NCBI GenBank assembly: GCA_016935815.1
Contig: JAFGQH010000061.1
Location: forward strand, 1-35,754
Length of the DNA: 35,754 nucleotides
DNA from: Bacilli bacterium
Lineage (GTDB): Bacteria; Bacillota_I; Bacilli_A; Izemoplasmatales; Hujiaoplasmataceae
Reading direction: 5' to 3'
Part shown: positions 10,640 to 29,755 of the stretch, in pieces
Layout of the letters: each line of letters begins with the position of its first letter
Position numbering within the stretch: position 1 is the first letter of the stretch
Notes under the pieces: model-generated
Told to the model about the DNA's origin: nothing
Seen by the model: only the letters and a program-made list of their open reading frames with translations
Databases searched by the model: none
Made by a program: the position numbers and the translations under genes

Positions 10640-11194
10640 ATGCCAAAGATTTTAGTATGTATCAATGACAACCTACTCAAACTAAGAATTCAAAGATTGT
10701 TATCAGAAAAAGCGTATGATTTTACGATTACAGATCGACCAATCAAGCGCACGGACCTAATTCAGTACGATATGGTATTGATACATTCAACCTATCATCT
10801 TACGGATTTGTTTCATTTCATCGAGAATGTGGTTTTACAACAAGTTACAACAATTGTGTATATTACCACGAATGTAAGTTCGAATCCATTTCGAAGATTC
10901 CACGAACATACAAACTTGATTTTCGTAGACGAACATAAAATGGACATTGAATTGATGTCAGTCATTCAAATGTTTGAAAAATACAACAAACAAGTAAGAA
11001 AGTTGAAAGAAGAGAATCAAAAACTATCCACTCAGTTGGAAGAAAACACTTTAATGAATCGCTGTAAAAGAACGCTAATGGAGCAAGGCCGCTCTGAAGA
11101 TCAAGCACATAAATATATCCTAAAATTTGCAATGGATCATCATATTAGTAAAATAGAAGCATGTAATAGGTTACTCGCAGACAATAGCGAGTAG
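10640..11194 (+). CDS. ANTAR-domain regulator with degenerate receiver
   Basis: A 184-residue protein with a receiver-like half (1-110), a coiled coil from about 118 (KLKEENQKLSTQLEEN) and a C-terminal ANTAR helix bundle (about 130-180: CKRTLMEQGRSEDQAHKYI, then KFAMDHH). ANTAR domains bind paired RNA hairpins with six-base loops and prevent termination. The receiver half lacks the phosphate-accepting aspartate: the position after strand 3 reads VLIHSTYHL where LLDIxMP is expected, so control is probably not by a histidine kinase; a pseudoreceiver as in AmiR is the model. It follows glyA by one base and lies directly before glnA, as ANTAR genes do near glnA in some Clostridia. Its last codons form a long hairpin. 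Confidence 0.82.
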   Translation: MPKILVCINDNLLKLRIQRLLSEKAYDFTITDRPIKRTDLIQYDMVLIHSTYHLTDLFHFIENVVLQQVTTIVYITTNVSSNPFRRFHEHTNLIFVDEHKMDIELMSVIQMFEKYNKQVRKLKEENQKLSTQLEENTLMNRCKRTLMEQGRSEDQAHKYILKFAMDHHISKIEACNRLLADNSE

Positions 11195-11209
11195 CCTATT
11201 GATTTTTTT
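11165..11209 (+). terminator. Long terminator overlapping the end of the ANTAR gene
   Basis: Left arm 11165-11178 (AATAGGTTACTCGC) pairs with right arm 11187-11200 (GCGAGTAGCCTATT): 14 pairs, one a G-T wobble, with an 8-base loop, followed by a T-run to 11209. The arms include the last codons and the TAG stop of the ANTAR gene. It separates the glyA operon from glnA. Confidence 0.88.
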
Positions 11210-11227
11210 ATAGATAATAGATATAAT
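11199..11227 (+). promoter_or_regulatory. Promoter of glnA
   Basis: TTGATT at 11199-11204, a 17-base spacer and TATAAT at 11222-11227, with the -35 inside the terminator tail. Transcription would start near 11234, giving a leader of about 90 bases. No clear GlnR box (TGTnA-n7-TnACA) is seen. Confidence 0.65.
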
Positions 11228-11231
11228 TACC

Positions 11232-11251
11232 TGAAAGCAATGGGGCTTACA
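11232..11251 (+). promoter_or_regulatory. Hexaloop hairpin at the start of the glnA leader, candidate ANTAR site
   Basis: AAGC (11235-11238) pairs with GCTT (11245-11248) around the six-base loop AATGGG, with TG/CA pairs outside one A-A mismatch. The loop has A at position 1 and G at position 4, the pattern of ANTAR-bound loops. A second, weaker candidate follows at 11257-11268 (ATG, loop AAAGGT, TAT). No terminator follows in the leader, so the function is unproven. Confidence 0.35.
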
Positions 11252-11321
11252 ATAAAATGAAAGGTTATAATTACGCAAAAGATGCATAGTATTGGTTCTG
11301 CGGATTATGAGAAAAAGAAAA

Positions 11322-12662
11322 ATGAAGAAATATACAAAAAGCGATATCCTTAAGATCGCAAAAGAGGAGAATGTCAGATATATCCGTTTGATGTTCACGG
11401 ACATTATGGGGACAATCAAAAGCGTTGAAATTCCCGTGACCCGCCTCGAAACTGCTTTGGATGGCAGAGTGATGTTTGACGGATCTTCCATAGAAGGTTT
11501 CGTTAGAATCATGGAAGCGGATATGTATTTAAGACCGGACTATGACACGTGGTTGATTCTAAGTTGGGAAGAAACCAGTTATGGTAAAGTCGCAAGATTG
11601 ATCTGTGATGTTTATACCCCACAAGGGAATCCTTCACCAGCAGACCCAAGGTCAAATCTAAAACGTGTCGCTAAAAAAATGGAAAAACTTGGTTTTTCCA
11701 CACTCAACATTGGCTTCGAACCTGAATTCTTCCTATTTAAGTTGGATGAAAACGGTGAAATCACAATGGATGTCAAAGACAATGGGGGGTATTTCGATCT
11801 CTCTCCAATTGACGGAGCAGGAGATTGTAGAAGAGACATCGTTTTGGAATTGGAAAGAATTGGATTTACTATGGAAGCAAGTCACCACGAAGTTGCACCT
11901 GGCCAAAATGAAATCAATTTCGAGTTTTCCAATATTATTGAAGCGGTTGACAATGTTCAAACATTCAAACTAGTGGTTAAGAACATTGCAAGAAGACATG
12001 GATTGCATGCGACATTCATGCCAAAACCAATTGCCAACATCAATGGTTCTGGTATGCATACGAACTGTTCATTGTCTGATTTGGAAGGAAATAATGCATT
12101 TGATGACCCAACTGATCCGCAAGGATTAAGTCATGTGTGCCGTCAATGGTTAACTGGTATATTAACTCATTCGAGATCTTTCTGCGCAATCACGAATCCG
12201 ACTGTAAACTCATATAAAAGACTAGTCCCAGGATATGAAGCACCGTGCTATGTTTCTTGGTCCGAACACAATCGATCTGTAATGGTTCGAATTCCCGCAA
12301 CAAGAGGAAGAACAACGAGAACGGAGATTCGTAGCGTTGACGTATCTGCCAATCCATATTTGGCTATCTCGGTCATTTTGGCTGCCGGACTTGACGGAAT
12401 CGAAAGAGATCTTCCATTGATCTCTTCGATCAATGAGAATCTGTTCGAACTTACGCAACAAGAAAGAACCGCTTTGGGAGTCAGCAGTTTACCTGACAAC
12501 CTAAAAGAAGCAATTGATGTATTGAAAGAATCGGAATTAATGAAAGAAGCACTTGGAGAGCATATCTTCAATAAGTTTATTGAATTGAAAAGCAAAGAGT
12601 GGGACGCATTCCGAACTGCAGTAACGGAGTGGGAAATCAACCGCTATATAAAATTGATATAG
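11322..12662 (+). CDS. glnA: Glutamine synthetase, type I-alpha
   Basis: GlnA makes glutamine from glutamate, ammonia and ATP as a dodecamer. At 446 residues it has [12 protein letters not shown] with Arg62, the feedback-inhibition residue of the Gram-positive I-alpha class, then [14 protein letters not shown] for ATP/glutamate, NSYKRLVPG and [12 protein letters not shown]. The region where type I-beta enzymes carry the adenylylated tyrosine reads [12 protein letters not shown], with Phe, so control should be by feedback and partner proteins instead of adenylylation. The start is placed at ATG 11322 by similarity to MAKYTREDI of B. subtilis; TTG 11292 or ATG 11307 would add a basic stub. The ribosome site is only a purine run. 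Its neighbour is the ANTAR regulator; no glnR is in the window. Confidence 0.96.
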
Positions 12663-16042: not shown

Positions 16043-19000
16043 ATGAGCAAGATAAAAACAGTTATTCAAAATATCAGAACTTGGTTCTCTGCTTTCACTG
16101 AGAGAACTTTTTCCGATCGTAAAAAAACATTTAAACTCATTGCATTGTTGGTATTTACGGTACTTTTCTTAATTCAAATGTATATTATCATTGTGCGCAA
16201 TAGTTTCTATAATTGCGTATCCGATGACATATTACAGTATTATACGGTGATTGTTGATTTCATAAGTGGATTAAAAGATGGTACGGTTTCTTGGTTTAAT
16301 CTCAACAATTATTTTGGAGCTTCCTTGTTCGCTGACGCTTATTATGTACCGATTGATATCTTTACTGGTATTACGTTCTTGTTGAGTTATGTAATGCCAA
16401 CAGAAGTGGCGTATTCTTCTACAGAATTATTTAAAATTCTAGCCAGTGTTATGATAATGGCATATTATCTAAATCTGAAAGGAATGAAGAATCGTACCAT
16501 ATTCTGGATGAGTATCTTGTATTTTATCAGTGGTGGTACTGTTAGTTTTATGGTTTTTCCGGTATTTTCAACTCTTTCAGTTTATATGCCTTTAGCCTTG
16601 ATAATCATTCATTTCTTTATTCGTAAAAAGAAGTGGTTGGTACCGCTATTTGCCTTTGCGATGGTTTTTTATGATTTCTATTTAGGCTATACAATGATGG
16701 CATTTACGGCTATGGCATTTTTGATTGAATACATTAAAGAACCCAACTTCAAGTTCTTCCGATTCGTCTTGGATTCATTGATATTTGTTGGTCTACTGGT
16801 CCTCGGAGTTCTTATGGCAGCGATTATCTTAGCCCCTTCTGTCATGTTTATTTTGGAAGATGCATACGTGACGTATCCTTCTTTTGATTCTTGGACGATA
16901 GCGATATTCGGACACGATTTAGAATTGTTTACTCCTAATATTTATATCCGAATCATAGCCAAAATATTTGCAGAGCAAATTCCAACCGGCTTCTATGGAT
17001 TGGAGAAACTCTATCCTTTTGAGCATTTCTCACTCTATATTTCCATTATTGGTTTTGTATATATGAATTACATCTTCTTTATGAAGGATAAGGTCAGTAG
17101 AATCTATAAGGTTGCAATATTGTTCGGAATCATTTTTATGATATTCCCGATTTTCTCTTATGTGTTCTCTGGATCTCTAGAATCTCCTTATACAAGATGG
17201 ATCAATATGTATTCAGTGTTCCAAATCATGATTTTGGCACATGTTTTTGATAAATTCGGCTTTGAAAACGTTAAAATGAAGTATATGACTAAAATCATAG
17301 TACCTTTATTGTTGATTCTTTCATTTGTGGTCTACTATTATATATTCCAATTAAGAGTGGACTCTTTATTAACGGCAGGCACACTCAATGCCGCGAATAT
17401 TAAAGATTACTATCTTGCAGATCCAATTCTATCAACACTATTTGGGGATGGCATGATTGATGAAATGATGATTGCCACTAGTGGATTGAATGCGAGACAA
17501 GCATTAACTGCCGACACAGTATTTATGGCAGTATCCGCTGTTTATATGTTGGTATTACTAATATTTGGCTGGCTTAAAAAATGGACTGTTATCAAAGGAA
17601 TCTTATGGGTTGAAATCATTTTAGCTATTGGCTATACCTTTGCAGTTTCGTTCAATGACATTAATCGTATTACAACATTCCAAAACGAACACGACATCCA
17701 AGAGTATTTGGATACTGTCTTAGATAACGAATCATTCTACAGAATCTACATTGATATCAATGGATTGGATGTTTCGAAAACAAATATCAATCGAATGACT
17801 GGTTATGCCACAAATTCTGGTGAAATATTCTTTTCCTGGAATGACAAAGAAACGGATGATTTCCCTGGGTTATTACTTGGTAAGTGGACAGAACCAAAGG
17901 CCTCTAAGAAAGTACTTAATTACTATAGCTACTATGTTACCAATTTCTTGGGATACAAATATATCTTGGTGGATGCAGAAAGCAATTACAGCTTTGATTC
18001 CATCTATTTTGATTTGATTGCAGGGAACGACACATATCGATTATATGAAATTGTCAATTCGTCACCTTTTATGGTTTATGAATCGTTTTTGACATACAAT
18101 GAATTTACTAGTTATCGGTTGATCAATAGCCAATCTGCTACAGAACAACTTCTTTTAGTAGCGGCTGTAATTGACACAGAAAGATACGCTGTGGAGGAAA
18201 TGAATCTTGAGCAAGCTACGACTTCAGATAATAACAACGTTTCCGAATCAGAAAGCTTCAATGTGATTGAGAATAGCACTATTGTGGAACGGGCCGGAGT
18301 GGAAGATGAAACTGTTCGAACCTTCTATCGATATTCGAATACAGATTTGAATATTGAGTATATCCTTGGTGCTGTATATTTCAACTCGTTTAGCGAAATA
18401 CACTATAACCTCTATGGAAATCTAGATTCCAATTACCTTCTTGATTTACTGGATTATGGAGAAGTATTTATGGAATTTGCTGATGGCTCGACAAAAGCAT
18501 GCTGGGTCCAACCAGGACAGTCTCATCAGATCAAGTGTGAATTCTTTGAGACTCCGATAGCTATTTATATCGAGGATACCAGTGCGATTGATGAAGCTCC
18601 TTCTTTGCAAATAAGACAAGAAGCGGCATTTAATGCAGCAGCGTATTTGGTCTATGATCTCAGCCAACTCAATTTATCTTCTGATTCCGGCGTCATTCAA
18701 TTTAGCTTCAATAATCTTACGATAGGAAAAGCTTTTGTTATGGATGAGTTCGGTAATAAATACAATTGTTTGGAAGGCTTTTATACTTTCAATACCATAC
18801 CTGAAAAATTGTATATTTTTAAGACATCTGATATGTATAATTACTCCAATTTATTTGATTTGACTCTGAAAGCGGCATTTGATGATTTGTCAGTTACGAA
18901 TGGACTATTGAATGAAGATTTCGTTTCCAGTAAATATATGACGATAAAGAATGGTATAATTACATTAGAATATACTAATACTAGTAATTCGACGTATGAT

Positions 19001-19261
19001 CAGGTTGTTATTGTTCCTGTTACTTATTCTGAAGAGTGGATTATCACTAGCCCAGTACAATATGAAACGATGAGTGTTAGTGGTGGTTTCTTAGGAATAG
19101 TGATTCCAAATGGTACGACCGAAATCAACATCACTTTGAAATTCATTCCAAAAGGTTTGGATGTTGGTGCTTTAGGTTCTGCAGCTGGAATTTTGATTTA
19201 TTTGGGTATTTTCTTGCCGGGTTGGATTAAAAAAAGAAAAAAAGGAGTTGATCCTGCATGA
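16043..19261 (+). CDS. YfhO-family membrane glycosyltransferase
   Basis: A 1072-residue polytopic membrane protein of the YfhO family, thought to be a GT-C-type enzyme that moves a sugar from a polyprenyl carrier to an acceptor outside the membrane. TM 1 lies at about 31-51, followed by a short outer loop with VSDDILQYY (Asp61, Asp62), the place of catalytic acids in GT-C folds. Many membrane segments run to about 540, then an extracytoplasmic domain (about 540-1035), a last TM (about 1039-1063) and a KKRKK tail. It is longer than B. subtilis YfhO (about 860), mostly in the outer domain. The stop overlaps the start of the glycosyltransferase gene (ATGA), and a flippase gene follows. Confidence 0.85.
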   Translation: MSKIKTVIQNIRTWFSAFTERTFSDRKKTFKLIALLVFTVLFLIQMYIIIVRNSFYNCVSDDILQYYTVIVDFISGLKDGTVSWFNLNNYFGASLFADAYYVPIDIFTGITFLLSYVMPTEVAYSSTELFKILASVMIMAYYLNLKGMKNRTIFWMSILYFISGGTVSFMVFPVFSTLSVYMPLALIIIHFFIRKKKWLVPLFAFAMVFYDFYLGYTMMAFTAMAFLIEYIKEPNFKFFRFVLDSLIFVGLLVLGVLMAAIILAPSVMFILEDAYVTYPSFDSWTIAIFGHDLELFTPNIYIRIIAKIFAEQIPTGFYGLEKLYPFEHFSLYISIIGFVYMNYIFFMKDKVSRIYKVAILFGIIFMIFPIFSYVFSGSLESPYTRWINMYSVFQIMILAHVFDKFGFENVKMKYMTKIIVPLLLILSFVVYYYIFQLRVDSLLTAGTLNAANIKDYYLADPILSTLFGDGMIDEMMIATSGLNARQALTADTVFMAVSAVYMLVLLIFGWLKKWTVIKGILWVEIILAIGYTFAVSFNDINRITTFQNEHDIQEYLDTVLDNESFYRIYIDINGLDVSKTNINRMTGYATNSGEIFFSWNDKETDDFPGLLLGKWTEPKASKKVLNYYSYYVTNFLGYKYILVDAESNYSFDSIYFDLIAGNDTYRLYEIVNSSPFMVYESFLTYNEFTSYRLINSQSATEQLLLVAAVIDTERYAVEEMNLEQATTSDNNNVSESESFNVIENSTIVERAGVEDETVRTFYRYSNTDLNIEYILGAVYFNSFSEIHYNLYGNLDSNYLLDLLDYGEVFMEFADGSTKACWVQPGQSHQIKCEFFETPIAIYIEDTSAIDEAPSLQIRQEAAFNAAAYLVYDLSQLNLSSDSGVIQFSFNNLTIGKAFVMDEFGNKYNCLEGFYTFNTIPEKLYIFKTSDMYNYSNLFDLTLKAAFDDLSVTNGLLNEDFVSSKYMTIKNGIITLEYTNTSNSTYDQVVIVPVTYSEEWIITSPVQYETMSVSGGFLGIVIPNGTTEINITLKFIPKGLDVGALGSAAGILIYLGIFLPGWIKKRKKGVDPA

Positions 19262-20184
19262 AACGAGGACGTATTATAGTTCCCGCATATAACGAAGAGA
19301 AAAACATTTCTTTGTTTTATGATGAAGTGACGAAATACATTAAGCAAGATGAATATGATATTGACATACTTTATGTAAATGATGGTTCCAAAGATAACAC
19401 TTTGGAAGAAATCAAAAAATTGGCAAAACGAGATAATAAAGTGAAGTACATTTCCTTATCTCGTAATTTTGGCAAGGAGTCCGCAATGCATGCTGGGTTG
19501 GTCAGCTCAAGAGATTTTGATTTTATCATTATGATCGACTGCGACTTGCAGCAACCTCCAAAATTGATTCCGGAAATGCTTGAATATTATGAAGAAGGAT
19601 ATAAAATTGTCTTTACGAAAGGGAAAACAAGAAAGAATGAACCGAAACTGAGAGCTTTTTTCGCGAACTGGTTCTATCGAATATATAATGCTTATACAGA
19701 AATGCCTTTGGAAAATGGTACGAAAGATTTTCAATTGTTGGACAAGGTTGTTGTCGAAGCATATTTGAAATTTAAAGATAATTACCGGTTTGTAAAAGGA
19801 ATGTTTTCATGGGTTGGATATTCCAGAAAGTGCATCGAATATGATTTCATTCCGCGACAACACGGAAAAGGCACTTGGAACTTCCGTTCTTTAATGAGAT
19901 ACGCTTTTAACGGGATGAATCAATTTTCAACAATCCTGTTAGTATTGCCTGTCATTATCGTATTCTTGGCGATCGCTCTAATTGTCATGGATGTAGTATT
20001 ATATTCTGCCAATACTTTCAGTTTGTCGGATTTGATTATTAGTTTACAGGTATCGTTCTTGTTGTTTGTATTTGGTGGTATCTCTTACGTTACGATCTAT
20101 TTGGTTTATCAAAACCGCAAACAGGTACTGAACAGACCGATTTACTTGGTAGAAGAAGCTTCGGGGGATTTAGATATTGAATAA
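19258..20184 (+). CDS. Polyprenyl-phosphate glycosyltransferase, CsbB/GtrB type
   Basis: A 308-residue family-2 glycosyltransferase that should load one sugar onto undecaprenyl phosphate at the inner membrane face. The GT-A domain shows VPAYNEEKNI (8-17), VNDGSKDNT, LSRNFGKESA and the metal-binding IDCDLQQPP with Asp94 and Asp96. RQHGKGTWNF is the GtrB/DPM1-type membrane-edge motif. Two TM segments end the protein (about 220-245 and 258-285), as in CsbB, GtrB and ArnC. It overlaps the YfhO gene by four bases and the GtrA-like gene by eight, so all three are translationally linked. The sugar cannot be predicted; GlcNAc is used by B. subtilis CsbB. Confidence 0.92.
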   Translation: MKRGRIIVPAYNEEKNISLFYDEVTKYIKQDEYDIDILYVNDGSKDNTLEEIKKLAKRDNKVKYISLSRNFGKESAMHAGLVSSRDFDFIIMIDCDLQQPPKLIPEMLEYYEEGYKIVFTKGKTRKNEPKLRAFFANWFYRIYNAYTEMPLENGTKDFQLLDKVVVEAYLKFKDNYRFVKGMFSWVGYSRKCIEYDFIPRQHGKGTWNFRSLMRYAFNGMNQFSTILLVLPVIIVFLAIALIVMDVVLYSANTFSLSDLIISLQVSFLLFVFGGISYVTIYLVYQNRKQVLNRPIYLVEEASGDLDIE

Positions 20185-20632
20185 GCTTTTTGCATTTATA
20201 AAGAAACATTTTTTAACTAGAAAATTCTTGACTTTCGGAATTATTGGAGTCGCAAATACCGGTATTGATGCACTGGTGTATTATTTGGTTTATTGGCATA
20301 TTAGTCCAAGTCCGTTTTGGTCAAAGACAGCGGCTTTTTTCGCAGCTTCTGTATTTTCCTATTTTGCAAATGTGATATTCACCTTTAAACCAAAGAAAAA
20401 GTCAACAGCACAATTTTCGATTGTCATGCTTGTCTTTGGATTGCGTTGGTTAATTAGTGCCGGGTTGGCCGTTGCCTTTGCGTATATCCTCCAAGATTTG
20501 ATGGGAATTGATTTTGAAGTATATAAATCAGTCAGTATTTTACCTACATTCTTAGCTTCTGCATTGCTGATACCGATAGCTTACTTCGCATTGGATTGGG
20601 TATTCCGCAAAACCGATGAGGAAAATAGTTAA
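20177..20632 (+). CDS. GtrA-family flippase
   Basis: A 151-residue protein with four TM segments and the GtrA start pattern FLTFGIIGVANTGIDALVYY. GtrA/GtcA proteins are believed to flip polyprenyl-phosphate-linked sugar across the membrane for O-antigen, teichoic acid or lipoglycan decoration. The start is TTG 20177 with GGGGGA eight bases upstream, overlapping the glycosyltransferase stop (TTGAATAA). It is the last gene of the glycosylation operon. No terminator is seen in the 59 bases before cdaA, so some read-through into cdaA is likely. Confidence 0.9.
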   Translation: MNKLFAFIKKHFLTRKFLTFGIIGVANTGIDALVYYLVYWHISPSPFWSKTAAFFAASVFSYFANVIFTFKPKKKSTAQFSIVMLVFGLRWLISAGLAVAFAYILQDLMGIDFEVYKSVSILPTFLASALLIPIAYFALDWVFRKTDEENS

Positions 20633-20691: not shown

Positions 20692-21432
20692 ATGGATGCA
20701 TATACCATCATAATTGTAATAACGTATTTATTTGCCTTGTTTTTGTTGATGTTGAGAATCAAAGTTTCTCATAAGACAATCAAACCATTCAAACTAATTT
20801 TGCTGTTATTTGCAGTTTCATCTCTAGTCTATTTGATCAATTATTCAGGTACAATGGATATCTATACCAGAATTCTGATCTTTTTACCTGTTCCTTATCT
20901 CGTAGTTATGACTTATATCATAGAAATCACAAACATTATGAAGAAAGCAGGCTTTAGCGGTTTCGCAAAAAAGCCTATGAAAATTGATAATGAATTATCC
21001 GAACAGTTGATGAGCGCAGTAGATTTTCTTTCAAAACGCAAAATCGGAGCTTTGATTACTGTGGAGCGCAATGTTAATTTGACACCATTTATCAACAAAG
21101 CTCTGTTGATTAACGCTGATGTTTCAAAGGAACTGCTAACTTCAATCTTTATACCTTCAACACCACTTCATGATGGGGCAGTCATTATTCGAGGAAACAA
21201 AATACTTTGTGCTAAAACGTACTATCCATCGACGGAAAGAACAGATCTCCCAATGACATATGGAACTAGACATAGAGCGGCAATTGGTATCTCTGAGCAA
21301 AGTGATGCTTTGACCATTGTCGTTTCAGAAGAAACCGGAAATGTAAGTGTTACAATAAATCGTCAAATGGAATATAATATCAGCAAAGAGACCCTTAGTC
21401 TTTATTTTGAAAAGTTCCTGAAAATGAATTAA
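20692..21432 (+). CDS. cdaA: Diadenylate cyclase CdaA
   Basis: CdaA joins two ATP into cyclic di-AMP, which controls potassium and osmolyte uptake and, in walled species, envelope balance. The 246-residue protein has three N-terminal membrane segments and the DAC domain with LTPFIN, HDGAV (Asp161-Gly162-Ala163) and TRHRAAIG (Arg193-His194-Arg195), plus VSEETG, so it should be active. In most Bacillota cdaA is followed by cdaR and glmM; here a terminator follows at once and neither partner is in the window. Its upstream neighbours are the glycosylation genes. Confidence 0.95.
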   Translation: MDAYTIIIVITYLFALFLLMLRIKVSHKTIKPFKLILLLFAVSSLVYLINYSGTMDIYTRILIFLPVPYLVVMTYIIEITNIMKKAGFSGFAKKPMKIDNELSEQLMSAVDFLSKRKIGALITVERNVNLTPFINKALLINADVSKELLTSIFIPSTPLHDGAVIIRGNKILCAKTYYPSTERTDLPMTYGTRHRAAIGISEQSDALTIVVSEETGNVSVTINRQMEYNISKETLSLYFEKFLKMN

Positions 21433-21455
21433 GCGCAGTCAGCGCTTTTCTTTTT
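21431..21455 (+). terminator. Terminator of cdaA
   Basis: AAGCGC (21431-21436) pairs with GCGCTT (21442-21447) around AGTCA, then TTCTTTTT. It overlaps the cdaA stop codon. Confidence 0.85.
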
Positions 21456-21490: not shown

Positions 21491-21519
21491 TTCACTTGGA
21501 TTATGGAGGTGATATCTTG

Positions 21520-23865
21520 ATGAAATATGATTGCATTGTATATGGTAATGACATTTACGGGCTGACAATAGCACTCTTTTTGGCACGTAAGATGCGCAAA
21601 GTACTCGTCCTTCAAGATAACACAAAGCCCGAAGATAATTTCGAGACAATTGATATTGTTGATCCAGAAAATCGCAAATACCATTTTGATTACAATTCTT
21701 TAGGAATGTTGAGTGGATATTCTCATTCGGGATTGTTAAATGCTTACCTTGATGATTTGGGTTTAGAAAACGAGCTAGAAACCGTTGGCGTGAAAGAAGA
21801 AACGATTGTTTATCCAGATCATACATTGGTCAAACGCTTCAATACCACGAATCAATTCAAGGTTCATTTGATACGACATTATCCGAAACATCGGAATCAT
21901 ATTCATAAATTCTTTGTCGATTTAGATAGGATGTATCGTAACTATACCACTCAATATGTCAGTATGCTCCGAAATACAGAATACACATTGACATCCTTGA
22001 TGATTGAATGGGGAAATTATAGCCTTGAAGAATTGTTGGATAAGTATTTTACATCCGAAGAATTGAAACAAGAATTTTCACTTAATAGCCAGATTAACGG
22101 TTTGAATCGCTCCGATGTAAACTCCTATAATTTTTTCTCATCCTATTTTGTCGGTTTGATGAATGGATTTGATTACTTGGTTACTTCAGAGGCAAAACTA
22201 AGAGATATTATTATAGCTAAATTGAAACTGATTGATCCGAGAATCGTACATAAGACAAGAATTAAATCCATTGAAACGGATGACGGAGATAAGATTTTGT
22301 CCTTCACCGATAAGGATGATAAACAATATTCCGCAAAATACTATTTTGTTGAATCAGAACCGGAAGCATTTTACAGCAAGTACTTTAAAGAAAAGCAGGA
22401 TGATTTGGATAGCATCCACGGGTATTATCCGAACTTCAACAAAACACAAAAAATCAATACGATGTATTTGGCAATTAATGATCATCCGAAAAATCTTGGT
22501 TTGGAAGATATGATATATTATTTTTCCAATCGAGAAGAACAAATCAAAATCGTTAAACTATTCAATTATTCTCTGTTTGAAAATTCTGATAAACGTAGAA
22601 AACATGGATTGTTGTGTTTGGACTACACCTATGACGAAGCAACCAATTATCACAAAGATGATTTATTGCGTAGAGTGTATGACGTATTTCCAAAGTTGAA
22701 GAAAGCCGTGGTAGGAGTTCGTGAGGGGAAACCCAAACGATACCTAACAATGCTTCACGATACAAGAATCCGCAAGAATCTATCCATCAATGAGATGATT
22801 GAGATTGAATCCTTAGAGCATATACAAGTATTTGATAATTTATATCTAGGATCCAAATATATGCGTCCAGAAGCGGGATTATTCGGAATCTTCAATCAAG
22901 CAATCATATTTGCAGATAAGATTGAGGATCGTCTCTATTTCGGTGATGATGACGAACCACAAAGTTCTCTTAGCAATGAAGAAATCATGATGATGATTCG
23001 CCATAATTTCAATCATGAAGTGTTTGGCAATCAAGAACTTCACATTAATTTCCATATTGGAAAAAGCACTTATTTCATACGAACAAAAGGCAAGAACATT
23101 GTTATTCACCAAGGTAAATATGCCCATGCGGATCTTTCTATTTATACCAACAATGACAGGTTGTCCAATCTTTTGCTTAAGAAAACGACTTTCAATGAAG
23201 TACTGGAAGAGGGGTCTTTGAAATATCGAGGCGATAAGGATCTTCTATTCCAAGCAGTTGATGCATTTACTTTAGATGACTATCAAGAATATAATCCTTT
23301 GGATTTTATCACTTCTAGATTTAGCAACATGGGGGCCAAGATATTATTCATCTATTTCGGAATTTATTCCGCGTCCGCACTTTTGACCAATTACTTGAAT
23401 GGAGTATGGATTTATCCAATTGCATTTGGATTGACCTTGTTGACAACCATCTTAAAAATCAGAGCATATGAAAGGGTTTATTGGTTTGATATATTTATCA
23501 ATGTCATTTTCCTTGGAGCATCAATTGCCGCCTTTTCATCACCTTGGGTCAATCAGCTGCGCATGGATGATCCGCTGCTAGGCGTTATGGCGCTTGCGTT
23601 ATTGATTTCGGTATTCACAAATCATCCGGTTGTATATCATTATACTAAGTATGATCAGAATATTGATTATCGAGGGTCTGTTCTCTTTCGGGTTATTTGT
23701 AATGGTTTAACATTCTTCTGGGGATTCTTATTCTTAGCAATCCTTGTTGGAACTTATATTACTGGAGAACGGTATGTTTCAGTATTGTATTTCTTTTATT
23801 TCCTAGGAATTTTCTTGATGTATTACTATCCGATTATATATGTAAAGACAAATATCAAGAAGTAG
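21520..23865 (+). CDS. CrtI-like oxidoreductase fused to SCP2-like and membrane domains
   Basis: A 781-residue three-part protein I cannot assign to a named family. Residues 1-480 follow the plan of CrtI/phytoene-desaturase-type flavoenzymes: an N-terminal Rossmann start (YDCIVYGNDIYGLTIALFLA), a middle segment MNGFDYLVTSEAKL where 'GG...L' is expected, and an end NLYLGSKYMRPEAGLFGI like the family's 'NLYLAG...P' motif. The nucleotide loop reads GNDIYG where GxGxxG is normal, so cofactor binding may be altered or lost. About 495-585 resembles an SCP2 sterol/lipid-carrier domain (HINFHIG, ADLSIYTN, GSLKYRGDKDLL). About 603-780 has six hydrophobic segments. ATG 21520 follows GGAGGTGA by seven bases. 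It is first in an operon with ispD/ispF, so an isoprenoid or lipid substrate is inferred. Confidence 0.7.
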   Translation: MKYDCIVYGNDIYGLTIALFLARKMRKVLVLQDNTKPEDNFETIDIVDPENRKYHFDYNSLGMLSGYSHSGLLNAYLDDLGLENELETVGVKEETIVYPDHTLVKRFNTTNQFKVHLIRHYPKHRNHIHKFFVDLDRMYRNYTTQYVSMLRNTEYTLTSLMIEWGNYSLEELLDKYFTSEELKQEFSLNSQINGLNRSDVNSYNFFSSYFVGLMNGFDYLVTSEAKLRDIIIAKLKLIDPRIVHKTRIKSIETDDGDKILSFTDKDDKQYSAKYYFVESEPEAFYSKYFKEKQDDLDSIHGYYPNFNKTQKINTMYLAINDHPKNLGLEDMIYYFSNREEQIKIVKLFNYSLFENSDKRRKHGLLCLDYTYDEATNYHKDDLLRRVYDVFPKLKKAVVGVREGKPKRYLTMLHDTRIRKNLSINEMIEIESLEHIQVFDNLYLGSKYMRPEAGLFGIFNQAIIFADKIEDRLYFGDDDEPQSSLSNEEIMMMIRHNFNHEVFGNQELHINFHIGKSTYFIRTKGKNIVIHQGKYAHADLSIYTNNDRLSNLLLKKTTFNEVLEEGSLKYRGDKDLLFQAVDAFTLDDYQEYNPLDFITSRFSNMGAKILFIYFGIYSASALLTNYLNGVWIYPIAFGLTLLTTILKIRAYERVYWFDIFINVIFLGASIAAFSSPWVNQLRMDDPLLGVMALALLISVFTNHPVVYHYTKYDQNIDYRGSVLFRVICNGLTFFWGFLFLAILVGTYITGERYVSVLYFFYFLGIFLMYYYPIIYVKTNIKK

Positions 23866-23879
23866 AAGGTTGAGGGTTA

Positions 23880-25052
23880 ATGAACGAATTCTTTATTTAT
23901 CTATCATTAGCATTCATTCTGGTGCTATTCATTATCAGTTCGATTCTATATAAAAAGATGAGAATCTGGAAATTGGTGCTGATTGCTTTAACTTTGGCAA
24001 TCTATGCCATTATAAGATTCCTTCCACAATACATCACATTTATCGATTCGAACCTAGCTTTGGAATACTTTACGTATTTCCTTTTTGGTGTATTGATTCT
24101 ACTATCAGTAACCTTTAAGAATAAAATTAAGATTACCCAAAATCTCACCGATTATGATTTCTTCGAATTAGAAAAGGAATTGGAAAATATCAAAGATGTT
24201 TCAGACTTATTGCGATTGCGATTTATTAATACAATCGGCTTACTACATGAAGGATTGATTTTCTATAATCCGGACTTGGAAGGATTGTTCATAACGGAAC
24301 AAACATCCGAGATATTGGGTATAAAAGAAAATGATCTTACAATGGAAACGTATCAGGGTTATCTTCATGAAGAAGACCGATCAGAATATCTTAAAGCGCT
24401 GAGAGGAACAACTAAGAAAAATCCATCATATGAGATTAAATATCGGATTATTCGCAATAAAACATATGCTTGGGTCATTGAAAAGGGGAGATTATTTACT
24501 CACGGAAAAAAAGATTATCTTGTTTCGACAATCAAGGGAATTGATATGAAATTGTTTCCGGAGACAATGATACACGAACTCGATTCTCTCCCGGATGAAA
24601 ATCTATTGACTCAAATTCTGGTTCAAGCGAGAAAAGAAAAAGAAGCGTTTTATATGGTTTTGATGCATTTGACCAATATTCCGGATATTAACAGAAGATT
24701 TGGAAGAGATGTCGGTAATTTAATGATTGCCGAATACATTCGAAAGATGAGGTATCATTTTGCAAGAGACCTCAATTCCATTTTCCGAATCACGGGAATA
24801 GAATTTGCATTGATTATTCGTGAAGAACAAAAATATGAGGTTCTGAAACGAGCATTGACAAGCGGTGGGGATTTAATCAATCTAAGATTGAATGTTGGTG
24901 GAATTCAGCAAATCGTCTATCCGAATGTGGGCATCGTCAGACACGATCCGTGGTCGAATTATGAAGTGAATGATTTCATTAGTTTAGGTCATAAGGCTTT
25001 GGAAGAAGCGATTCGAAACAATAAAAAGAACTATTCTATTTTTGGAGAGTAA
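23880..25052 (+). CDS. Membrane PAS protein with degenerate GGDEF domain
   Basis: A 390-residue signalling-type protein. Three N-terminal membrane segments (about 5-24, 30-52, 62-82) lead to a PAS-like domain (about 115-230; EILGIKENDL, LHEEDRSEYLKAL, YEIKYRIIRN) and a C-terminal GGDEF-like fold (about 232-390; NRRFGRDVGNLMIAEYI). The active-site motif reads TGIEF (305-309) in place of GGDEF, so c-di-GMP synthesis is unlikely; it may bind nucleotide, act as a sensor, or work by protein contact. It starts 14 bases after the oxidoreductase fusion and ends one base before ispD, so it belongs to that operon. The ligand of the PAS domain is unknown. Confidence 0.78.
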   Translation: MNEFFIYLSLAFILVLFIISSILYKKMRIWKLVLIALTLAIYAIIRFLPQYITFIDSNLALEYFTYFLFGVLILLSVTFKNKIKITQNLTDYDFFELEKELENIKDVSDLLRLRFINTIGLLHEGLIFYNPDLEGLFITEQTSEILGIKENDLTMETYQGYLHEEDRSEYLKALRGTTKKNPSYEIKYRIIRNKTYAWVIEKGRLFTHGKKDYLVSTIKGIDMKLFPETMIHELDSLPDENLLTQILVQARKEKEAFYMVLMHLTNIPDINRRFGRDVGNLMIAEYIRKMRYHFARDLNSIFRITGIEFALIIREEQKYEVLKRALTSGGDLINLRLNVGGIQQIVYPNVGIVRHDPWSNYEVNDFISLGHKALEEAIRNNKKNYSIFGE

Positions 25053-25053
25053 T

Positions 25054-25707
25054 ATGTTTTCAGTTGTGATTGTTGCCGCAGGTAGCGCAAAGCGTACTGC
25101 ACTTGGGTATAATAAGATTTTCTATAGAATCAAAGGCAAAACATTGATTGAACATAGTGTTCAACCGTTTCTTGACGATCCAGATTTCAAAGAAATTGTG
25201 ATTGTACTTTCCAAAGAGGATATGCAAGAAGTAAGAGACCTATTTACCAAATCAAATGTGAAATATGTCATTGGTGGAGCGACGAGACAAAAATCCGTAT
25301 TCAATGGACTTAGCATCATCAATGAGGAATACGTCTTGATTCATGATAGTGCACGACCTAATCTCAAACCCGATACTTTGAATCAGATAAAAAAATCTGT
25401 TGTTGAACGAGGAGCTACGATTATGTACTCCCCTGTCAAGGATTCTGTGATAGAATATAGCGGGGAGAAAGTAAATCGATATCCAAGACGAGATGAAGTG
25501 GGATTGGTTCAAACGCCTCAAGCATTTTCAAGCGGAGCAATCAAAAAGGCTCATTCACTTGCTTTGAAACATAAACACAATTACACAGATGATGCCAGTT
25601 TGTATATGGCTGAAACAAACCAACCGGTATACCTTATTCAAGGGTATGATACAAATATCAAAGCTACAACAAAAACAGACTTAGCCTTATTGGAGGAAAT
25701 ATTATGA
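25054..25707 (+). CDS. ispD: 2-C-methyl-D-erythritol 4-phosphate cytidylyltransferase
   Basis: IspD transfers CMP to methylerythritol phosphate, the third step of the non-mevalonate isoprenoid pathway. The 217-residue protein has VVIVAAGSAKR (4-14), GGATRQKSVFNGL, LIHDSARP, LVQTPQAF, TDDASL and IKATTKTDL, all expected in the family. The start is ATG 25054 with GGAG six bases upstream; the TTG at 25042 is inside the ribosome site region and is rejected. Its TGA stop overlaps the ispF start. TarI, a close relative acting on ribitol phosphate, is the alternative, but the ispF neighbour settles the call. Confidence 0.95.
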   Translation: MFSVVIVAAGSAKRTALGYNKIFYRIKGKTLIEHSVQPFLDDPDFKEIVIVLSKEDMQEVRDLFTKSNVKYVIGGATRQKSVFNGLSIINEEYVLIHDSARPNLKPDTLNQIKKSVVERGATIMYSPVKDSVIEYSGEKVNRYPRRDEVGLVQTPQAFSSGAIKKAHSLALKHKHNYTDDASLYMAETNQPVYLIQGYDTNIKATTKTDLALLEEIL

Positions 25708-26195
25708 TCAAGATAGGATTTTCAAAAGATGTTCATCCACTAGAAGAAGGTAGACCATTCGTGCTTGGTGGAATCAAAATCGATCATCACAAGGGCTCTG
25801 TCGGACACTCTGACGGAGATTGTTTGTTGCACGCAATAGCAGAAGCGATACTTGGAGCTTTGGCGCTTGGAGATTTAGGGAAGTTCTTTCCTGATACAGA
25901 GCCTAAATATAAAGATTACGATTCTCAGTTGATTCTTAAAGAAGTGTTTGAATTTGTGTATAATCGGGGTTATGAGATTTCCAATCTGGATTGTATGATT
26001 TCTTTAGAAAGACCGAAACTAGCGCCATATATGAAAGAAATGAGGGAGAATATCGCAAGTATTTTAAAGTGTGATAAAGGACAAATATCAATCAAGGCAA
26101 CAACTCACGAAGGATTGGGATTCGTCGGAAGAGAAGAAGGAATCCTATGCGAAGCAATCGTTTTACTGGAAGGTTCTGACTATGGCATAGATTAA
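25704..26195 (+). CDS. ispF: 2-C-methyl-D-erythritol 2,4-cyclodiphosphate synthase
   Basis: IspF cyclises CDP-methylerythritol phosphate and releases CMP, step five of the MEP pathway, as a zinc-dependent trimer. The 163-residue protein has the metal ligands Asp9 and His11 (KDVHPLEEG), GHSDGDCLLHAIAEAILGA, and KATTHEGLGFVGREEGI. The last normally reads KATTTEGLGFTGRGEGI, so there are small changes but no lost ligand. It overlaps ispD by four bases and ends the four-gene operon at a terminator. Other MEP genes are not in the window. Confidence 0.96.
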   Translation: MIKIGFSKDVHPLEEGRPFVLGGIKIDHHKGSVGHSDGDCLLHAIAEAILGALALGDLGKFFPDTEPKYKDYDSQLILKEVFEFVYNRGYEISNLDCMISLERPKLAPYMKEMRENIASILKCDKGQISIKATTHEGLGFVGREEGILCEAIVLLEGSDYGID

Positions 26196-28513: not shown

Positions 28514-29755
28514 ATGGAGAAAGAGAAACATCAACTCTGGAATCAGATTTCCAGATTCATTTTATTGAAACAGAATATCATCATATTTTTTTGTTTGCTG
28601 GCGTTGTTTATGGCATCCTATTTTTTTATGAATCTGAATACCAATGATAATAATGTAACATGGATATTTTCATCCTCTATGCAAACCTTGGCGGCATTAA
28701 TTGCATTACTACCTATTTCTTACAGTTATTACCTTCATAACATTGAAAATGCTAAGAAAGATGATTATGATAGTTATATTATTCGAAGGCTTCAAAAGGA
28801 CGTTTACTATGAAATGATGTTTGTCATCATTTACTCTCTCTTTGTCATCATTTTTAATCTATTTAATCTATATATGATTTACAGCATTAAAAATGCTTTA
28901 TTCACTGTATTTTTTACAGCCTTGGCTATCCAGTTCCTTGTCATCTATATCTATCGCCTATTTGATCCGGATCGAGTCAATAGTATTCTTAGGGACTTAG
29001 ATAAAAAAAGCGAGAAACAAAGCGATATCAAAGTTTCATTAGATGAATTCATTACTCAATACTTGAATTTGGAAACCGCAGTTAAAGACTATATTTCCAA
29101 CGAGAACGATAATGAGATGATCGATAAATTGCCATTGTACGATATCGTCGATAATCTCTCAAAAGACTTTGAAAACTTAAGTCGGCACTATGATACGTTC
29201 AAAGAAATCATTTATCATCGAAATAATCTAATTCATAACTATAATGTTGTAGAAGTAGATTACGAGAAATATGAAAAGATATTGGATCTGATTTCTGTAT
29301 TTGAGAAATACAATCAACACTTTATTACACAGCATGTATTTAGTGGGATTAATTCGGTCATGGAAACAATAGAAAAGACATTATCAGAATATTTATTAGA
29401 ATCGATTAGCTTAAGAGCGATGGATGAGAATTATTTAGCTGATTTGAAATCCGACATTTGTTCCTTGCTTCATTCTCACTTCGTCAGCAATTACTATATC
29501 ACTAAAAGTTTGAATGATGCTTCAGAAACAGACTTTGAAATCATCCAGAACAACTATTCCAACCGAAAGATTGTAGGGATAGATATTCGAACTGTGCATT
29601 CCAAACAATTGACAAAAGTATCTGAGCCATATTTTAAACGACTGAAAGAACGATTTTTATATCTGTTCTTGATTAATTACAACGTATCTAACAATGGGTT
29701 TGAGATCATATATAAGACGAGTGATAACAAAACCAAAATGAAGACAGTCCAATAG
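28514..29755 (+). CDS. Four-TM protein with HEPN-like cytoplasmic domain, function unknown
   Basis: A 413-residue protein I do not recognise. Four hydrophobic segments (about 17-41, 51-75, 101-121, 128-150) are followed by a helical cytoplasmic region of about 260 residues. That region holds the motif HRNNLIHNYN with Arg236 and His241, an R-x4-H pattern followed by a hydrophobic/acidic helix (DYEKYEKILDLI). It resembles the HEPN fold of RNases, toxins and abortive-infection proteins. One short motif is weak proof; an ion-channel-like or signalling protein is equally possible. ATG 28514 has AGAGGTGA five bases upstream. No partner antitoxin or nucleotidyltransferase gene lies beside it: corA is divergent and a YugI-like gene follows with its own promoter. 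Confidence 0.6.
   Translation: MEKEKHQLWNQISRFILLKQNIIIFFCLLALFMASYFFMNLNTNDNNVTWIFSSSMQTLAALIALLPISYSYYLHNIENAKKDDYDSYIIRRLQKDVYYEMMFVIIYSLFVIIFNLFNLYMIYSIKNALFTVFFTALAIQFLVIYIYRLFDPDRVNSILRDLDKKSEKQSDIKVSLDEFITQYLNLETAVKDYISNENDNEMIDKLPLYDIVDNLSKDFENLSRHYDTFKEIIYHRNNLIHNYNVVEVDYEKYEKILDLISVFEKYNQHFITQHVFSGINSVMETIEKTLSEYLLESISLRAMDENYLADLKSDICSLLHSHFVSNYYITKSLNDASETDFEIIQNNYSNRKIVGIDIRTVHSKQLTKVSEPYFKRLKERFLYLFLINYNVSNNGFEIIYKTSDNKTKMKTVQ

Follow-up and report, generated by a model that had tools for sequence, protein, structure and literature searches.

This locus raises the question of what a protein does that joins a CrtI-like fold, an SCP2-like domain and six membrane segments in one chain, and that is encoded between cdaA, the gene of a membrane diadenylate cyclase, and the gene of a membrane PAS/pseudo-GGDEF protein. 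The window, that is, the whole stretch of 35,754 nucleotides that was analysed, belongs to a 1.41-Mb assembly of 79 contigs that is 80% complete. We label the protein TARGET, and call the family of the window f1 and the other two families of the same order f2 and f3.

Domains of the 781-residue protein

The features of TARGET in the window are as follows:

21520-23865, + strand: TARGET, 781-residue CrtI-like, SCP2-like, six-transmembrane protein (a TTG start at 21517 is also plausible)
21520-22959, + strand: CrtI/CrtISO-type flavoprotein fold, residues 1-480
21544-21561, + strand: altered dinucleotide loop GNDIYG, residues 9-14
21865-21888, + strand: near-invariant family motif YLxRHYPK, residues 116-123 (family alignment)
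22864-22878, + strand: RPEAG, residues 449-453, replacing the CrtI C-terminal FAD motif (alignment; E451 in 48/48)
23005-23274, + strand: SCP2-type lipid-carrier domain, residues 496-585 (Pfam, Foldseek)
23326-23859, + strand: six-helix membrane domain, residues 603-780, weakly YciB/VC0807-like (AlphaFold models, profile matches)

The reading frame is uninterrupted for 781 codons from the ATG at 21520, and the TTG at 21517 is no less likely as the start codon, given its spacing of 7 nt 3' of GGAGG and the orthologues that begin at the equivalent codon. The earlier note had claimed a single open reading frame with three regions, and this was confirmed: TARGET is one intact protein comprising a CrtI/CrtISO-type fold, an SCP2-type domain and six membrane helices, with the CrtI match obtained by hhalign and the SCP2 match by Pfam and Foldseek. 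Orthologues with less than 20% identity still have this architecture, which rules out an accidental fusion or an assembly error. Conservation is highest at the Rossmann start, around YLxRHYPK, in the C-terminal motif and in the SCP2 domain. The note knew of no such combination, and likewise we found none described in Pfam, NCBIfam, the PDB or the literature searched; as far as these searches reach, TARGET is a conserved, previously undescribed fusion.

The family profile aligned with CrtI-like proteins across residues 1-472 (hhalign, probability 100, E 6e-40), which, at the level of the fold, places these residues in the CrtI/CrtISO superfamily. The closest relative of this N-domain that we found is a single-domain CrtI-type protein from another family of the class (L143:5824-7278, genome G111), which matches the family profile at 2e-46 over model positions 3-468 (hmmsearch); it keeps the FAD motifs and matches TIGR02730, TIGR02733 and TIGR02734 at 6e-42 to 5e-49 as well as the solved CrtI-type enzymes 4rep and 4dgk. 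As a single sequence, TARGET reached at best TIGR02730, carotenoid isomerase (1.8e-5), at 23.8 bits vs. an equivalog cut-off of 586.9, and carotenoid isomerase is also the named sequence model that most members match.

The flavin motifs of the N-domain are altered, as the earlier note had recognized for the nucleotide loop. The second glycine of GxGxxG (position 11) is replaced in 29/29 f1 sequences, by Asp in 26 and by Asn in 3, so that the window protein reads GNDIYG at this site. Nearly all of the 19 f3 sequences have GGGLGS, with Glu or Asp after strand 2, and the GG doublet seen after strand 2 in CrtI-type enzymes is missing from both f1 and f3. No C-terminal flavin motif of PGxG type was found; RPEAG occupies the aligned position and is lost in the four divergent members of genus g18. 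In Rossmann flavoproteins, a charged residue at the second glycine is hard to reconcile with normal binding of the FAD diphosphate. We surmise from the loop that canonical FAD binding is probably gone from the f1 N-domain, and that f3 members may be true, FAD-carrying flavoenzymes since they keep GGGLGS and the acidic residue after strand 2. The full-length AlphaFold model, built from four sequences, has a mean pLDDT of 39 and is too poor for judging the FAD site. TARGET thus resembles the CrtISO/CrtI/CrtD superfamily (TIGR02730, TIGR02734, TIGR02733) in fold, in the alignment along the whole N-domain and in the position of the C-terminal flavin motif, but differs from it in that: 1) f1 members lack the second glycine and the GG doublet; 2) TARGET stays far under every equivalog cut-off; 3) it carries fused SCP2 and membrane domains; 4) its genome has no detected phytoene or squalene synthase.

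For the middle segment, the whole protein matched Pfam Alkyl_sulf_C (PF14864) at 1.5e-6, with 28.9 bits over a gathering score of 27, and PF02036 (SCP2) matched the segment alone at 0.022. With the AlphaFold model of residues 484-781, the top 46 PDB matches in Foldseek were all of SCP2 type (E 1.3e-6 to 1e-2), among them the C-terminal domain of the alkyl sulfatase SdsA1, SCP-2 and UbiJ. The predicted SCP2 fold, as the note had read it, is well supported by these matches. TARGET shares its fold with these carriers and differs from them in that the SCP2 domain sits internally, between the flavoprotein fold and the membrane domain. From the SCP2 and CrtI-type folds together, a putative lipid ligand can fairly be inferred, and this part of the proposal that TARGET acts on, senses or transports an isoprenoid lipid is reasonable; the isoprenoid part, drawn from ispD-ispF, is not well supported (see below).

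Two AlphaFold models agree on the six C-terminal helices that the note had counted (604-622, 628-650, 655-673, 683-700, 721-748 and 753-780); a family-averaged hydropathy scan marked segments between 601 and 748, including two that overlap at 601-631, and did not detect the last helix. Several members match NF041646 (VC0807 family) at about 620-745, the best at E 1e-6 to 1e-7 and under the 65-bit cut-off. In hhalign, the probabilities were 32% for E. coli YciB and 22% for VC0807 relatives, both weak, vs. 0.1-0.2% for five control membrane proteins. We take a possible kinship with YciB/VC0807 as a lead only, the similarity being weak and the domain of TARGET being fused, not free-standing. Free-standing VC0807/YciB-like membrane proteins of 223-227 residues, ending in PPYxGQxxGF or similar, are encoded in L158 (10874-11554), L159, L160, L161, L162 and L163. 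In L158 roughly 1.3 kb separates the VC0807-like gene from a CrtI-like one, and a Rosetta-stone search for separate CrtI, SCP2 and VC0807 genes in one operon found no SCP2 gene beside this pair.

Gene neighbourhood and distribution

The neighbouring genes and signals in the window are these:

20692-21432, + strand: cdaA, membrane diadenylate cyclase (PF02457 1.5e-39; TIGR00159 3.8e-52, 177 bits vs. cut-off 188.8)
21431-21447, + strand: terminator-like hairpin 3' of cdaA
21482-21490, + strand: extended -10 element TGTTATAAT, the likely TARGET promoter
23880-25052, + strand: membrane PAS/pseudo-GGDEF gene, 14 bp 3' of TARGET (domain matches)
25042-25707, + strand: ispD
25704-26195, + strand: ispF

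The order cdaA, TARGET, PAS/pseudo-GGDEF is constant in nearly all complete loci, across 24 genera and down to 13-22% identity. A hairpin occupies the gap between cdaA and TARGET in 41/45 loci (0.7 in shuffles), and TGnTATAAT occurs in 38/45 (0.5 expected from shuffles), mostly 22-38 bp upstream of the TARGET start codon. With a terminator and TARGET's own promoter lying between the two genes in most loci, cdaA and TARGET are probably not on one transcript, and we rejected a cdaA-TARGET operon as a general claim. Downstream, the PAS/pseudo-GGDEF gene follows within 0-30 bp in most loci, with a 4-bp overlap in g18, and ispD starts -53 to +24 bp from it in f1, which makes co-transcription of these two genes likely there, vs. 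230-370 bp in most f3 loci. As judged by these spacings and by the hairpin and promoter before TARGET, the closely packed unit consists of TARGET and PAS/pseudo-GGDEF and, in f1, ispD as well. The earlier note had placed TARGET before ispD-ispF; the nearest downstream gene is in fact PAS/pseudo-GGDEF, and ispD-ispF come after it.

Elsewhere in the window (16043-20632), a 1072-residue protein that has no Pfam or NCBIfam match and is conserved at 53-56% in L002/L003 is followed by a PgfS-like glycosyltransferase (NF047588, 4e-67) and by GtrA; the group may be a system for lipid-linked sugar transfer. A 413-residue ORF at 28514-29752, again with no match in Pfam or NCBIfam, is 78-91% conserved in L002 and L004, and a glutamine synthetase gene is directly preceded by one for an ANTAR-domain protein (10640-12662).

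TARGET was found in 62/90 genomes of the order, in 24/29 genera, and not outside the order among 392 genomes sampled across the phylum, where one further match covered the CrtI part only; a scan of viral contigs with the family profile gave no match. Distances among TARGET sequences correlate with those of CdaA, PAS/GGDEF and IspD (Spearman 0.81, 0.85 and 0.87), which fits vertical inheritance. All 62 TARGET genomes have CdaA, and TARGET is absent from all 12 genomes of the order that have no CdaA match (Fisher 1e-7, which overstates the association owing to kinship and, for five of the 12, to contig gaps that cdaA and TARGET may share). The seven f2 genomes keep PAS/pseudo-GGDEF-ispD-ispF-yutD and have lost both cdaA and TARGET, and this one clade is the basis for CdaA loss that assembly gaps do not explain. 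Conversely, 16 genomes have cdaA and no TARGET, so TARGET is not needed for c-di-AMP synthesis. In genera g16, g17, g20 and g27, TARGET is cleanly missing between cdaA and PAS/pseudo-GGDEF, which stand 15-36 bp apart, and this spacing means that TARGET, where present, stands within a pair of genes that otherwise forms a cdaA-PAS unit.

The association with ispDF is looser. The PAS/pseudo-GGDEF-ispD-ispF block also exists in genomes devoid of TARGET, both in relatives with cdaA (among the 16 genomes above) and in f2, and TARGET is kept in five genomes that have no IspD match at all (G048, G058, G062, G065 and G082), IspD being absent anywhere in g18 and G082; two further genomes with TARGET and unmatched IspD (G018, G088) probably reflect assembly gaps. 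No gene for squalene/phytoene synthase (SQS_PSY) was found in any f1 genome, and in f3 it is present in 16/18 TARGET-less vs. 9/31 TARGET-bearing genomes, a negative association confounded by kinship. The isoprenoid inference from ispD-ispF is therefore weak: PAS/pseudo-GGDEF intervenes, the two dissociate, and f1 lacks SQS_PSY. Taken together, the dissociations in f2, g18 and G082 and the CdaA and SQS_PSY patterns favour cdaA rather than ispDF as the functional neighbour of TARGET, on few independent events. Among the IspD proteins themselves, unusually long ORFs of 365-382 residues occur in G093, G098, G109 and G115, and a single ORF at L144:2837-4000 visibly joins IspD to IspF.

In other Firmicutes, CdaA is co-transcribed with, complexed with and regulated by CdaR and GlmM, and the manner in which CdaR regulates CdaA is still unclear (PMC8573169). 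None of the three families of the order has CdaR (YbbR), which in outgroup families is encoded after cdaA. We considered whether glmM had been lost together with cdaR; this was refuted by a GlmM-like gene elsewhere in the genome. TARGET resembles CdaR in position, as a membrane protein encoded just after cdaA, but it has no detected sequence relation to it (a Pfam search of TARGET itself gave no YbbR match), its bulk is predicted to be cytoplasmic and it has its own promoter. In the PAS/pseudo-GGDEF protein, GGDEF is replaced by GIxF in 75/75 homologues. Its gene directly follows cdaA in TARGET-less genera, and longer relatives of about 520 residues occur in outgroup families that lack CdaR: in genomes G091, G098, G103 and G109 the longer relative is present and YbbR absent, and in three of the four it lies downstream of cdaA. 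This protein may thus be a CdaR substitute in its own right. A GdpP-like identity was unsupported, no GdpP-specific model having matched, and in the literature we found no paper linking diadenylate cyclase with Acholeplasma.

Possible functions of TARGET

We tentatively favour, at somewhat less than even chances, the reading that TARGET binds lipid at the membrane as a sensor or adaptor and is linked to c-di-AMP signalling. This reading draws on its place between cdaA and PAS/pseudo-GGDEF, its loss together with cdaA in f2, the absence of CdaR and the SCP2 fold; neighbourhood is not proof of interaction. TARGET would be anchored in the membrane, bind lipid and, within this order, take over part of the role that CdaR has in other Firmicutes, perhaps by contacting CdaA and PAS/pseudo-GGDEF; the f1 N-domain would act as a binding module, its canonical FAD binding probably lost, and the f3 N-domain may still carry FAD. 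Sensing fits better than catalysis because the partner is a pseudo-enzyme and f1 TARGET lacks the second glycine and the GG doublet. A bolder form, in which, for this order of bacteria with small genomes, TARGET as flavoprotein-like, lipid-binding sensor and PAS/pseudo-GGDEF make up a two-protein membrane module that replaces CdaR and ties c-di-AMP synthesis to the state of membrane lipids, is conceivable but somewhat unlikely.

The main rival, which we also judge unlikely, is a working flavoenzyme that would isomerize, desaturate or reduce a lipid of the membrane, possibly an acyl or polyprenyl one; the SCP2 domain would present the lipid, the six helices would keep the enzyme membrane-bound, and FAD would be bound in an unusual way. 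The CrtI/CrtISO-type fold across 472 residues, the strong conservation of YLxRHYPK on the substrate side and of RPEAG at the flavin-side position, the GGGLGS and acidic residue retained in f3, and the company that SCP2 domains keep with lipid enzymes such as alkyl sulfatases all speak for catalysis; the altered second glycine throughout f1 and the lost doublet, the g18 members that have no RPEAG, and adjoining genes that are signalling genes speak against it. A degenerate FAD loop in a protein with an SCP2 domain would suit a non-catalytic carrier or chaperone that moves or stores a membrane lipid and has no signalling role, like Rab GDI/REP, which has a related two-domain fold and handles prenyl groups. 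The family profile does touch Rab GDI sequences (E 0.03), but this weak match involves the first 48 residues only, i.e. the dinucleotide loop, and a carrier leaves the fixed position between cdaA and PAS/pseudo-GGDEF and the joint loss with cdaA in f2 without a reason, so that we hold it to be the less probable of these two. Least probable, and in our judgement very unlikely, is the role in isoprenoid or carotenoid metabolism that the earlier note had read from ispD-ispF. The close packing of TARGET, PAS/pseudo-GGDEF and ispD in f1 and the preference of most members for the carotenoid isomerase model argue in its favour; that model is missed by a wide margin of bits, however, and a carotenoid pathway role is disfavoured by the lack of SQS_PSY in f1, the negative f3 association (confounded as above) and the retention of TARGET where IspD is absent (g18, G082).

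Conservation across the order through drift below 20% identity implies that TARGET does something that selection keeps. Were TARGET an enzyme, the carotenoid-isomerase-like flavoproteins would gain a new member that is bound to the membrane. Its setting makes the question of how CdaR acts on CdaA testable, with CdaR absent and two other membrane proteins in its place. If TARGET binds lipid and alters the activity of CdaA, membrane composition would be linked to c-di-AMP, which is known for potassium and osmotic control, and hence to that control in these organisms.
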